Source: Microbacterium lacus
GTDB lineage: Bacteria > Actinomycetota > Actinomycetes > Actinomycetales > Microbacteriaceae
Length of the DNA stretch: 64,000 bases
Direction: 5' to 3'
Assembly (NCBI RefSeq): GCF_039531105.1
Contig: NZ_BAAAPK010000001.1
Coordinates: forward strand, 2,852,001-2,916,000
Positions within the stretch are counted from its first letter, which is position 1; every line of letters begins with the position of its first letter. This document shows, one piece after another, positions 7,603 through 22,487 of the stretch. The position numbers were made by a program, and so were the translations under genes. The notes under the pieces are model-generated. The model searched no databases and had not been told where the DNA came from. It saw nothing but the letters and a program-made list of their open reading frames with translations.

Positions 7603-7697
7603 ACACAAGCTAGGGGAAATCGCCCCCGTACACAACAGTTGTTCTTCGAATGCGCTCTGATCGTTGCAAACTCGGGCGATCGTTATGGGTTCTTTCC

Positions 7698-7713
7698 CTG
7701 GAACCGTTCCCAG
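7698..7713. promoter_or_regulatory. Second LacI-type operator, upstream of the regulator gene
   Basis: CTGGAACCGTTCCCAG is an imperfect 16-bp palindrome around a central CG. It shares GGAACCG with the first site, 107 bp away. It precedes the chosen GTG start of the regulator, consistent with autoregulation or looping between the two sites. Confidence 0.6.
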
Positions 7714-7793
7714 AAACGCTCGGATCTCGTATGCTGATCGCCAGCCGCACGGGCGTGCGGATCGGCAGAGCGGCCTCGGAGGCGGTGACGGAC

Positions 7794-8843
7794 GTGAGTG
7801 GCATCGCTGAGGTCGCACGACTCGCGGGAGTCTCCAAGTCCACCGCGAGCCGCGCGCTCGGGGGCACCGGCTACGTCTCGGAGGAGACCCGTCAGCGCGT
7901 CCATCAGGCCGCGGCGTCGATCGGCTACGTACCGTCCACGAGCGCAGTGAGCCTCGCGACCGGGCGGACGCAGAACATCGGCGTCGTGATGCCGTACGTG
8001 AACCGCTGGTTCTTCGCCGAAGTCCTCGAGGGCATCCAGCAGGTGCTCCTGGCACAGGGCCTGGACCTCACGCTGTACGACGCGAAGCCCGGGACCGAGG
8101 GACGCAATCGGATCTTCGAGGACTTCCTCGCCCGCAAACGGTTCGACGGCCTGATCGCCGTCGGACTCGAACCGGATCACCAGGAGCTGGACAGACTCGT
8201 CGCGATCGGCCGGCCGATCGTGAGCGTCGTCGGATCGAGCAACGTGACCACCGTGGTCGAGATCGACGACGACCATGTCGCGCGCCGAGCGACCGAGCAT
8301 CTGATCGCACTCGGCCATCGTGACATCGCCTTCATCGGCGGCGGGCTGAGCACCCACTGGGCGCAGGTCGACCGGCGCCGGTTGGACGGCTACCTCAATG
8401 CGATGAAGACCGCCGGCCTGTCCGACCACGTCCGCCACATCTACTCCGACGTCACGCTGCCGGGCGGCTATGCGTCGGCCGTGGACGCGCTCGGAGAAGC
8501 GCGCGGAAGACCCACCGCGATCGTCGCCACGTGCGACGAGGTCGCGATCGGGGCGATCATCGCCGCCCGGCGCCTCGGCGTGCAGGTGCCGAGCGATCTG
8601 AGCGTGATCGGCATCGACGATCACGAGTTCGCCGACATGTTCGCCCTCACCACGCTGCGGCAGACTCCGCGCGAGCAGGGGCGGGTCGCGGTGCAGCTGC
8701 TCCTGGAGCACCTGGACGACCCGACGCAGCCCCCGAAGACCGTGCGCATGACGTCCCAGTTGGTCGTCCGCAATTCCACCGCGGCGCTGGACCCCCGCGC
8801 GTCGGCGGTCGCGATCGATGGCCGGCGGCGGGGCGGCCTTTGA
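7794..8843 (+). CDS. LacI-family transcriptional regulator of the alpha-galactoside locus
   Basis: 349 residues. The N-terminal helix-turn-helix with hinge (IAEVARLAGVSKSTASRALG, residues 4-23) is followed by a periplasmic-binding-protein-like sugar-sensing domain (NIGVVMPYVNRWFFAEVLEG; LSVIGIDDHEFADMF; LTTLRQTPREQG). The GTG at 7794 is chosen because it puts the HTH at residue 4, as in LacI proteins, has GGAGG 11 bases upstream, and leaves the operator at 7698-7713 outside the gene. An in-frame ATG at 7731 is possible but would add an unconserved tail. Divergent from the sugar ABC operon, so a local repressor is likely. Confidence 0.93.
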   Translation: MSGIAEVARLAGVSKSTASRALGGTGYVSEETRQRVHQAAASIGYVPSTSAVSLATGRTQNIGVVMPYVNRWFFAEVLEGIQQVLLAQGLDLTLYDAKPGTEGRNRIFEDFLARKRFDGLIAVGLEPDHQELDRLVAIGRPIVSVVGSSNVTTVVEIDDDHVARRATEHLIALGHRDIAFIGGGLSTHWAQVDRRRLDGYLNAMKTAGLSDHVRHIYSDVTLPGGYASAVDALGEARGRPTAIVATCDEVAIGAIIAARRLGVQVPSDLSVIGIDDHEFADMFALTTLRQTPREQGRVAVQLLLEHLDDPTQPPKTVRMTSQLVVRNSTAALDPRASAVAIDGRRRGGL

Positions 8844-10130: not shown

Positions 10131-10147
10131 ATCCGCGCCGCCTGGCG

Positions 10148-10227
10148 CCGAGTGCACGACGTGTCACCGAGCGCACGGCTCGGCCGCGGCGCGAGGCCGT
10201 GCGGTCGGTGCAAAGTCGTGCACTCGG
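10148..10227. repeat. 80-bp inverted word array, downstream side of the AbiEi-like gene
   Basis: Four copies of a 13-bp word, two in each orientation: CCGAGTGCACGAC (10148), CCGAGCGCACGGC (10167), then inverted copies at 10196-10208 and 10215-10227. Word, six-base gap, word, 16-base centre, word, six-base gap, word make exactly 80 bp. The array at 11332-11411 has the same geometry. It lies between the gene's stop codon and the rplJ promoter. Confidence 0.9.
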
Positions 10228-10246
10228 CCGCGGGACTGCTCGCAGG

Positions 10247-11230
10247 TCACGAAGGCGGCCGGATGCCGAAGGACGCGAGCCTCCGGCCGAGCGCGGCCGC
10301 GCTCACGATGTGCTCGTCCTCCCAGCGTACGAATCTCCACTGGGTCGTGCCTCTGATCCAGTCCTCCCGTCGCTTCTCTTCCAGCAGCACCTGCTGCAGC
10401 GGGATGCCGCGGCGCATCGCCTCGTCCGTGTACTTGCCCTGGCCGTCGAACTCCCCGAACGCGCGCACGTCATCGAGGCCGAAGTCGACGAAGTACCGGC
10501 GTCCGCGCGGAGCGGGCACCGGCACCTGCAGGCGGGGGCGCGCGAATCCCAATCGGACCAGTCGCAGGCGACTCACGCTCTCGCCCGGGAGCTGCGCTCT
10601 GCCGTCGGAGAAGTCCGCGACCCACCGCGCCTGCCGAATCCCCCGTGCGCCGTCGGCATCGATGAGCCGCCGCTGCAGACCTTCCCGCCACGCCAGCACG
10701 GCATCCTGATCCCACTCCCTCCCGCGCAGTGCCATCTGACGCTCGGCCGCATCGGCGCAAGCCAGCGCGGTCTCGAGCGGAAGTGTCCGGATGACGTCGA
10801 AGACCGTGCGCGCGAGTGACGTGCACCGGATGCCCCACCGCACGACGATGTCGTCCGCGCGCAACGGCGCGACGTGTCTGCGGACATCCGGACCGCTCGA
10901 GATCCGCACCGGGGCGGGCGTGGTCACGTGCACGCGATCGGGTCGGTGACGGTACAGAGGGAGGCCCCACAGCACGGCGGCGGATTCGTGGGAGGCCACC
11001 GCACCGCCGCGCGAGTCCCTCGCCACCGCGATCACGTGCGCGAGATGTCGACCCTCCGGCCACATCCGCGCGGCATCCGCCGCCTCGAGGAAGGATCCGC
11101 GACGCAGCACGAGCAGCTCACCGCGATCGACCGCACCGGCGATCGCGCGGTCGGTCCACCCGTCCTCGCGCAGACCGGATCTCGATCGAACGAGGGGGGA
11201 CAGTTCCGCTACGGAGAAGGCACGTCGCAT
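10247..11230 (-). CDS. AbiEi-like / DUF559-type protein with nuclease-like C-terminus
   Basis: 327 residues from ATG 11230. The N-terminal part resembles AbiEi-type antitoxin proteins: winged helix, then ASHESAAVLWGLPLY near residue 90 and TSLARTVFDVIRTLPLE near 145. The C-terminal part (about 245-320) has a PD-(D/E)XK/Vsr-like pattern: YFVDFGLDDVRAFGEFDGQG followed by K, then EKRREDWIRG and a final strand WRFVRWEDEHI. Such proteins are frequent in Microbacteriaceae; function is not established. No AbiEii-like toxin partner is adjacent. The gene sits between two identical-geometry repeat arrays and splits the ribosomal-protein neighbourhood. The reading frame stays open upstream, so the start is uncertain. 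Confidence 0.8.
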   Translation of the reverse strand: MRRAFSVAELSPLVRSRSGLREDGWTDRAIAGAVDRGELLVLRRGSFLEAADAARMWPEGRHLAHVIAVARDSRGGAVASHESAAVLWGLPLYRHRPDRVHVTTPAPVRISSGPDVRRHVAPLRADDIVVRWGIRCTSLARTVFDVIRTLPLETALACADAAERQMALRGREWDQDAVLAWREGLQRRLIDADGARGIRQARWVADFSDGRAQLPGESVSRLRLVRLGFARPRLQVPVPAPRGRRYFVDFGLDDVRAFGEFDGQGKYTDEAMRRGIPLQQVLLEEKRREDWIRGTTQWRFVRWEDEHIVSAAALGRRLASFGIRPPS

Positions 11231-11331
11231 CGGTTCAGAGTCAGGCCCCGCAGCGACCCGCAGTCTCAGATCTCGGCATCTGTGGACACCGGGAGCGCGC
11301 GCCCTCCGTGTGGAGGAGGAGATCGCACCCG

Positions 11332-11411
11332 CCGAGCGCACGGGTACGCGCCGAGCGCACGACTTTTCGACGTGCGCATGCCGTGCACTCGGCAGGAACT
11401 CGTGCACTCGG
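11332..11411. repeat. 80-bp inverted word array, upstream side of the AbiEi-like gene
   Basis: Four 13-bp words: CCGAGCGCACGGG (11332), CCGAGCGCACGAC (11351), and inverted copies at 11380-11392 (GCCGTGCACTCGG) and 11399-11411 (CTCGTGCACTCGG). Spacing 13-6-13-16-13-6-13 equals that of the array on the other side of the gene. It also lies 68 bp before the YqaJ-type gene. Confidence 0.9.
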
Positions 11412-11479
11412 CGCAGCAGGGGCCGCGGACGCGGGTGTCGCGCCACCGCGTGAGGGCGAGCGGGGTTAGCCTCGAAGGC

Positions 11480-21153: not shown

Positions 21154-21321
21154 TGTGTTCCTGTTCTTCGTGCGCCCCGCGGGGCGCGCTTCCACGAACC
21201 AGGCGAGTCCTGGACGTGGTGGGGTTTTCGTCGCGCGATGGGCGCAACCGCTCAAGTCTACCTGATCCGCTCCCCCGGCATCCCCTCTCGCCTCCAGCCC
21301 CGCTCGACGTGCGAGATCGCG

Positions 21322-21379
21322 GAGATGTGCAGGATGACGGATGCCGCGCGGGCGATGTGTCCGTCATCGTGCACATCTC
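21322..21379. repeat. 58-bp inverted word array, downstream side of the DUF559-type gene
   Basis: A 20-bp word GAGATGTGCAGGATGACGGA (21322-21341) and its inverted copy (21360-21379, differing at one base) are separated by 18 bp. A further partial inverted word, CCGTCATCC, follows at 21379-21387. The array at 22356-22413 has the same word and the same 20-18-20 spacing. Confidence 0.9.
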
Positions 21380-21415
21380 CGTCATCCGGCGCACCACGTC
21401 CTGCCCAGACGGTGC

Positions 21416-22246
21416 TCACGCGGCCCGATGCAGCCCCTGCGCGACGGCGCGCACGATCACGTCATGGACCTCCGCCCACCGCGCCATGATCTGCACATAG
21501 TCGATGCGGATCTCGTGATAGCCGAGCAGCGTCAGGCGCGCATCGTGCCCGATGTCGCTGCGGCGCTGTGCGCCGACGTGGTGTCCGCCGTCGATCTGCA
21601 GGACGAGGCGGTCGCCGACGAGGAAGTCGACCGGATACCCCGCGAGCCACACCTGCTGACGGATCGGCAGCCGCAGGAATCGCAGGCGCACCGAAATGAA
21701 GGTCTCGAGCCCCGAATCTGAGTGCAGCGAGCACTCCTCGAGCAGCGAGCGCGCGGCGGGGGCGAGGGGCATGAGCCGGAGCGACTCGCGGACGACGAGG
21801 CCCTGCCGGAGCGCGGATTCCCACACAGCCATCGCCCGCTCGTGAGGCTGACAGCCCGCGATCGCCGCAAGGACGTTCTCGACCGGGTCGGCGACGGCAT
21901 CGGGATGCCGCGGCACGAGCGGGCGCCCCCAGTGCACCCGCGTCCCCGCCCGGACCTCCCCGATGTGGCGCTTCGGCGGCGCCGCCACATGGACCGCACC
22001 GTCCCCGAGCACCCACAGTCCAAGCCTCTCTGCCTGTGTGACGCAGGAGACGACCACTCCGGCGCGCGCCGCCGCGACCAGCAGCGGATCGGCGTCCGGC
22101 AGCGCGACCCAGCCGTTGCGCGGGCGGATCAGCTCCCGCGTCGAGACCGCGTGCTCGATCGCCCGCCGCGGCACGCCGGCCGCCCGCAGCGCCGCTACCC
22201 TGACCACGCCGCCGCCCGTGGCGACGGCATCCCTCACGAATCCCAT
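21416..22246 (-). CDS. DUF559-type protein with Vsr-like nuclease C-terminus
   Basis: 276 residues from ATG 22246 (a GTG at 22279 would add 11). The N-terminus GGGVVRVAALRAAGVPRRAI resembles the winged-helix start of AbiEi/DUF559 proteins. Residues about 195-265 match the DUF559/Vsr pattern: SGLETFISVRLRFL (Glu), YPVDFLVGDRLVLQIDGGHH (two Asp in strand context), then HDARLTLLGYHEIRIDYVQI. Likely a DNA-nicking or nuclease-fold protein, activity unproven. It interrupts the usual nusG-rplK adjacency and lies between two matching repeat arrays. No toxin partner is adjacent. Confidence 0.82.
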   Translation of the reverse strand: MGFVRDAVATGGGVVRVAALRAAGVPRRAIEHAVSTRELIRPRNGWVALPDADPLLVAAARAGVVVSCVTQAERLGLWVLGDGAVHVAAPPKRHIGEVRAGTRVHWGRPLVPRHPDAVADPVENVLAAIAGCQPHERAMAVWESALRQGLVVRESLRLMPLAPAARSLLEECSLHSDSGLETFISVRLRFLRLPIRQQVWLAGYPVDFLVGDRLVLQIDGGHHVGAQRRSDIGHDARLTLLGYHEIRIDYVQIMARWAEVHDVIVRAVAQGLHRAA

Positions 22247-22355
22247 CCCCGCAGACTTCCGCGTCGCGCGCACTGCCACCGGAGCGCCGGCGTGATTGGG
22301 GAAGACGCGCGGGGGTCCGGGCGGTGGGGAGGAGTGGATGCCGCGCAGAAGTGCA

Positions 22356-22413
22356 GAGATGTGCAGAATGACGGATCCTCTGCGCCCTCAGCATCCGTCA
22401 TCGCGCGCATCTC
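22356..22413. repeat. 58-bp inverted word array, upstream side of the DUF559-type gene
   Basis: The word GAGATGTGCAGAATGACGGA (22356-22375), 18 bp, then the inverted copy TCCGTCATCGCGCGCATCTC (22394-22413). A further inverted partial word, CCGTCATCGTGCACGTCG, follows to 22430. Same word family and geometry as 21322-21379. Confidence 0.9.
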
Positions 22414-22454
22414 CGTCATCGTGCACGTCGACGCGGCCGAGCGCGGGCGCAAAG

Positions 22455-22487
22455 CGAAAGCGCCCCGTCGAAGACGAGGCGCTTTCG
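22455..22487 (-). terminator. Terminator downstream of nusG
   Basis: CGAAAGCGCC / GGCGCTTTCG stem with an internally paired centre, 14 bases after the nusG stop. It suggests that rplK is transcribed from its own promoter. Confidence 0.8.

Follow-up and report, generated by a model that had tools for sequence, protein, structure and literature searches.

The movement of REPINs, which are inverted doublets, is ascribed to RAYT transposases; they flank the RAYT genes, which are single-copy and vertically inherited (PMC3116915, PMC8049555 and PMC3733652). Inverted repeats of 23 bp are also known as the targets through which AbiEi and Rv2827c repress the promoters of their own genes (PMC7319586). 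Here we describe a gene in a 64,000-nucleotide stretch of Microbacterium lacus DNA (contig NZ_BAAAPK010000001.1; the whole stretch is termed the window in what follows, and positions count from its first letter). The gene encodes a 287-aa protein, is placed between nusG and rplK on the minus strand that they share, and is bracketed by two dyads of a 20-bp word that also recurs elsewhere in the genome. Together they resemble a bacterial jumping-repeat system of a type not described so far. We consider it probable that gene and word form a REPIN/RAYT-like pair of a helper gene and its short repeats, run by an unrelated nuclease, in which binding, cutting and copying are the steps that we infer. 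No description of DUF559 genes with private repeats was found in one open-access library (PMC), a scope outside which most subscription journals lie.

The word of this gene (word 1, GAGATGTGCANGATGACGGA) occurs forward and inverted on each side of it (Table 1), and in 100 dinucleotide-shuffled versions of the window five word 1 matches were never reached. Both dyads are 58-bp blocks in which the forward and inverted words are spaced 38 bp start-to-start, and the downstream dyad begins 36 bp from the stop codon. The original prediction, made from this DNA alone, had given these words and their coordinates correctly, along with partial extra inverted words that are indeed found outside both dyads; its further claim of identical 18-bp centres holds for their length alone, the two sequences being different.

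The architecture recurs across the genus. In a set of 149 Microbacterium genomes, including the window's own (G000), a protein search found matches in 144 at E 1e-10. At 69 homologous loci the 400 bp before the protein match were aligned with the 400 bp after the stop codon in both orientations, and the bar was set at 21.2, the best score among 300 random flank pairs from the window. The loci were drawn from 30 given ones and 40 more taken in descending score, passing over G101 (in-frame stop) and G144 (contig edge); L053, at a contig end, was scored but is not among the 69. The bar was exceeded at 57 of the 69, with a median of 37.8 against a random mean of 14.7; 56 of the 69 reached z >5 against shuffles, and 62 exceeded all of their own shuffles. 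A collection of loci from named genomes, overlapping in species with the 69, gave 62 of 79 above the bar, including two of three Agromyces loci (one further locus, L197, had no flank, so that 79 of 80 were scored). The words differ between groups of genes, and these scores bear out the view that the recurrence of one architecture, with words specific to the genes, is no coincidence.

Word 1 goes with the gene. Counted with up to two mismatches in the 149 genomes, it has 13 copies in the window's genome, nine in G139, nine in G008 and 14 in G145, and 0–2 in the other 145 (1–2 in 33 of these). The same four genomes hold the four best protein matches (100, 80, 73 and 68%), all at nusG-rplK. A second word of the genus, word 2 (CAACAGGTCAACCGNGNTTC), has 3–35 matches in 10 genomes, 1–2 in eight and none in 131; in eight of the 10 the gene lies at one shared site with word 2 beside it, and seven of these eight loci exceed the bar, L076 scoring 20.6. 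In G101, a genome with 23 word 2 matches, the flanked gene (L333, G101:C20:41437-42270) carries an in-frame TGA stop, possibly a recent decay of the helper.

The original prediction proposed a search for other genomic copies of the word, and in the window's genome there are five further complete dyads of word 1, each with spacing 38, plus one variant. Separately, G008 has two dyads with identical core and centre 172 bp apart (L181 985-1214), which suggests a recent local duplication.

Two more units of this kind are present in the window's genome. The first, near 10 kb of the window, shares the architecture but has a word unrelated to word 1, both as originally predicted; its gene had been called DUF559-type as well, and this was not upheld by profile search. 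Its word has 47 genome matches against 12 for a reversed control; three dispersed pairs have spacing 49, which occurs in the unit's own array too. The other unit (L030) has its gene near C1:1573446, with MTES_1575 and DUF559 matches below cut-off. Its word (CGCGAGAGGGCA) has 38 genome matches against nine for the control; these form 14 pairs with spacing 44, including one at the gene itself, and by eye its elements are alike for ∼8 bp past the word on each side. Many of these elements (L030, L345-L361) contain CGGCGTGTCGCCCTACA as an inner stretch, which may point either way, and several lie 8–20 bp behind a stop codon. One genome thus holds three units with three words, three spacings (38, 49 and 44) and three populations. 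By a crude GC3-heuristic gene caller, used in place of annotation to place elements relative to genes, 26 of 28 elements lie outside open reading frames. The pattern is real, widespread in the genus and specific.

Table 1. Features of the word 1 unit, its immediate surroundings and the 10-kb unit, in window coordinates
Feature	Position	Strand	Details
Array of the 10-kb unit	10147..10228		Different word (GCCGAGYGCACGAC)
Gene of the 10-kb unit	10247..11230	-	327 aa when read from an internal ATG; AbiEi-like according to PADLOC (3.9e-17); no Pfam match
Other array of the 10-kb unit	11330..11412		
rplK-upstream stretch (GGTAGACTT...)	21240..21268	-	Just beyond the word 1 unit on the rplK side; found again in several relatives; presumed rplK promoter
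Dyad downstream of the gene	21322..21379		Forward word 21322-21341 (+, 0 mismatches); 18-bp centre 21342-21359; inverted word 21360-21379 (-, 0 mismatches)
Partial outer inverted word	21378..21393	-	Repeat pair I9
Gene for the 287-aa protein	21416..22279	-	GTG start; AbiEi-like DNA-binding half and DUF559 nuclease half (predicted)
Dyad upstream of the gene	22356..22413		Forward word 22356-22375 (+, 1 mismatch); 18-bp centre 22376-22393; inverted word 22394-22413 (-, 2 mismatches)
Outer inverted word	22412..22431	-	3 mismatches to word 1
nusG terminator-like hairpin	22455..22487	-	I11; just beyond the word 1 unit on the nusG side

Presence and absence at defined sites were followed at two places. 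At nusG-rplK, four of 16 junctions have the gene with both dyads, eight have neither (one of these, in G001, has other repeats) and four (L146, L148, L149 and L151) have another AbiEi/nuclease-like gene, judged similar by eye, adjoined by other inverted repeats. Units of this kind thus seem to have entered the site more than once. Arrays at this junction in relatives without the gene, which had been named beforehand as the sign that arrays and gene are independent, were not seen among the 16. A tree was built from rplK and ∼800 bp downstream, one short region that may mislead; in it G003, which has neither the unit nor any word copy, is the sister of the window's genome (99/96). At aroB-aroQ the dyad is present in the window's genome and in G139, and seven genomes, including G003, have 11–88 bp there without a dyad. 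The 30 loci examined at this site comprise, besides these seven, the window's own, seven with aroQ unreadable, three with 170–207 bp holding other inverted repeats (by eye), and 12 with 480–1402 bp that were set aside. Among 23 dispersed loci of the four word 1 carriers there are four pairs at matching places. At one of these (L031 2601-5199 compared with L175), two dyads bracket ∼2.5 kb with a TetR-like gene and others in the window's genome, and G139 has a single dyad at the joined position; this may reflect either a loss by recombination or a gain of cargo.

The genes themselves are mostly inherited in place, since linkage on both sides gathers the 69 loci at a small number of sites (26, 8, 5, 4, 4, 4, 4 and 3 loci, with 11 single). 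In the largest group, for which linkage on one side sufficed in the array comparison (32 loci, the 24 above the bar being used), the left and right arrays of a locus align with a median of 37.2, whereas left arrays of orthologous loci align with a median of 14.7, equal to background (28% of pairs exceed 21.2). The fraction of pairs whose words are alike rises from 0.12 at 50–55% protein identity to ∼0.5 at 55–65% and 0.93–1.0 above 65%. Protein identity and word similarity correlate with rho 0.52 in the largest group and ∼0 or slightly negatively in three small groups; the locus pairs are not independent, and left-left scores in the small groups are inflated by shared neighbouring genes. Left and right copies of a locus thus change in concert, as expected if a single reader, presumably the protein, recognizes both.

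The 287-aa protein, whose nearest named record is a Microbacterium protein from a metagenome-assembled genome (97% identical), matches DUF559 (PF04480) at 28.6 bits (cut-off 20.6). The Pfam profile search matched AbiEi_4 as well, and did not match Y1_Tnp. Other collections gave a weak AbiEi assignment (PADLOC, 4.2e-05) and a single weak family of unknown function (PHROGs, E 0.0044); NCBIfam has no family for this protein or for that of the 10-kb unit. In a structure model, with models compared using Foldseek, an AbiEi fold spans residues 10–184. The protein is accordingly predicted to join an AbiEi-antitoxin-like half to a half resembling Vsr and the homing endonuclease I-Bth0305I. Nuclease residues are invariant across 68 sequences in the alignment of homologues (A1, which omits L080 and L053), so that model and alignment together give a known homing-endonuclease catalytic fold with a conserved motif.

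The helper-and-repeat reading builds on computed features: the architecture, the private words, the co-occurrence of word and gene, the fixed spacings, sites with and without the dyad, and the conserved nuclease motif. Most likely the AbiEi-like half would recognize the ∼20-bp word in double-stranded form, the word being present as inverted copies separated by a constant spacer, with half-words outside them; this fits the binding of 23-bp inverted repeats by AbiEi (PMC7319586). The Vsr/homing-endonuclease-like half would act on DNA at or near the dyad. Cutting, followed by repair or transposition, would copy short dyads to other sites, for the most part between genes, and the same process would keep the pair of dyads that flank the gene alike. 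The gene would mostly stay at one site, to be lost or replaced now and then, and each such gene would read and maintain its own word.

Several results weigh against this reading. Twelve of the 69 loci fall below the control bar, and one of 24 ordinary window genes (7650-8843) also exceeds it, at 23.0. In a wider PF04480 sample, made up of 27 order-wide loci and nine of the window's genome (two of 38 loci were too short), only 14 of 36 reach z >5; the pattern thus extends past the family, yet is far from universal for DUF559. The four carriers at nusG-rplK are not one clade in the short-region tree described above (p-AU 0.00025; four changes), and their distribution therefore needs several losses, transfer or repeated insertion. 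Neither target-site duplications nor exact ends were seen at nusG-rplK and aroB-aroQ, where the flanks are too diverged. G028 has 14 word 2 matches and no close gene (best 39%); in six fetched hairpin regions of this genome (L339-L344) the repeats alone match the other carriers and the neighbourhood of the gene does not. It is a real exception, and repeats can therefore outlast the gene or be independent of it. Finally, because the genomes are related, shared ancestry accounts for part of the association between word and gene.

The main alternative is that the protein is an AbiEi-type autoregulator, the words being operators at its own gene and in a scattered regulon, and the DUF559 half a relic or in some other role. 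This would agree with the AbiEi fold of the first half of the model and with the repression of their own promoters by AbiEi and Rv2827c through inverted repeats (PMC7319586). Among the 57 passing loci the upstream repeat ends 64–312 bp before the protein match, and in 50 of them at 64–175 bp, as an operator might. The other repeat, however, starts 1–188 bp after the stop codon and within 50 bp of it in 48 of the 57, and by the crude caller 12 of 22 dispersed elements in the window's genome lie no more than 40 bp from the 3′ end of a gene. The 26 elements outside open reading frames (same caller) are eight divergent, nine tandem and nine convergent, against a background of 15, 26 and 17. The four pairs at matching places among the 23 dispersed loci of the four carriers and the invariance of the nuclease residues also speak against operators, and we regard this explanation as unlikely, if the strongest of those that compete with a helper and its repeats.

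A second alternative takes the dyads for ordinary RNA hairpins, that is, bidirectional terminators or mRNA stabilisers that share their sequence by chance. The arms do pair, at 13–20 of 20 positions, and the elements are often found behind stop codons. Across 26 word 1 elements of the four carriers, mean entropy is 0.43 in the conserved arms and 1.56 in the centre, which is not conserved, although the choice of elements by word match favours conserved arms. Several elements have further word copies in their flank, 18 bp apart. The two arms of an element pair with each other (0.842) hardly better than arms dealt anew among elements (0.825), and 84 of 2000 shuffles reach 0.842, which suggests that letters rather than pairing are kept; with so weak an excess, hairpin structure was no longer taken for the main constraint. 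Terminator calling gave no T-run terminator at the dyads, no Rfam family matched at gathering score, and terminators have no need of gene-private words. The hairpin explanation is in our view improbable, and the words appear to be read as double-stranded DNA rather than as hairpins.

More doubtful again is a conventional transposon, in which the gene and its terminal inverted repeats would move as one piece. Similar repeats do bound the gene, and the nusG-rplK junctions, with eight of 16 lacking any such gene and four holding another AbiEi/nuclease-like gene with inverted repeats, are what such an element might leave. Against it stand the few shared sites and the inheritance of the gene mostly in place, as well as dyads that occur without the gene. 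Carriage by phages or plasmids was rejected as a candidate in its own right, with no match in 50,697 phage records and two weak, partial matches below 60% identity in 72,556 plasmid records, and these searches count against the transposon too. That some other mobile element moves the dyads while the gene merely sits between two of them, as the orphan word 2 population of G028 might suggest, is scarcely credible given word populations that accompany the gene in 4/4 (word 1) and 9/10 (word 2) high-count genomes, a genome whose three units differ from one another in word and spacing, and no Y1 transposase in eight genomes (other transposase families not searched).

If a helper and its repeats is the right description, DUF559/MTES_1575 proteins with AbiEi domains, a large family still without explanation, would gain a role, and dozens of naturally occurring pairs of protein and word would form a series in which a DNA-recognition code could be read and tested. 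Whether these pairs amount to a separate class of bacterial mobile repeats is in our estimate evenly balanced. In such a class, an AbiEi-type reader with a homing-endonuclease-type cutter would maintain private double-stranded dyads and evolve new word specificity at the same chromosomal site, with flanking and dispersed words following; there would be several pairs per genome, and the class would span Microbacterium and reach some other actinobacteria.

Each of the nearest described systems shares part of the pattern. AbiEi antitoxins of type IV toxin-antitoxin systems (6y8q, Rv2827c) have the fold seen here in residues 10–184, which in this protein is fused to a nuclease. No adjacent partner toxin gene was found in an operon with the gene; the next genes on the same strand, rplK and nusG, are 262 and 221 bp away and leave no space for one. 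EDxHD/Vsr-type homing endonucleases, exemplified by I-Bth0305I, differ in that no intron or intein is seen around the gene here, that a private word lies on both sides of the gene and is dispersed, and that the DNA-binding half is AbiEi-like. The DUF559 and MTES_1575 nuclease families are represented by a PF04480 match above cut-off; to our knowledge, their family description includes neither private flanking words nor word populations.

The closest likeness is to REPIN/RAYT systems (REPtrons). In both, a helper gene is flanked by its own repeats and mostly inherited in place, inverted doublets of fixed spacing are dispersed in intergenic DNA, copy number is higher where the helper is present (here with the exception of G028), and several helper-repeat pairs can share a genome. 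We do not file the present system there despite this likeness, because its helper is an AbiEi-DUF559 protein and no Y1 transposase, and Y1_Tnp (PF01797), the known REPIN helper, was found in none of eight carrier genomes, while six of 14 control genomes were positive. It seems to differ further in its arms, whose sequence is conserved while compensatory pairing is hardly apparent, and it does so in its 3–38 word matches per genome, far fewer than the 69–235 REPINs quoted for Escherichia coli (PMC8049555). REPIN-like populations are known from pairs with Y1 transposases; an unrelated nuclease as partner, if true, would imply more than one origin of such populations.
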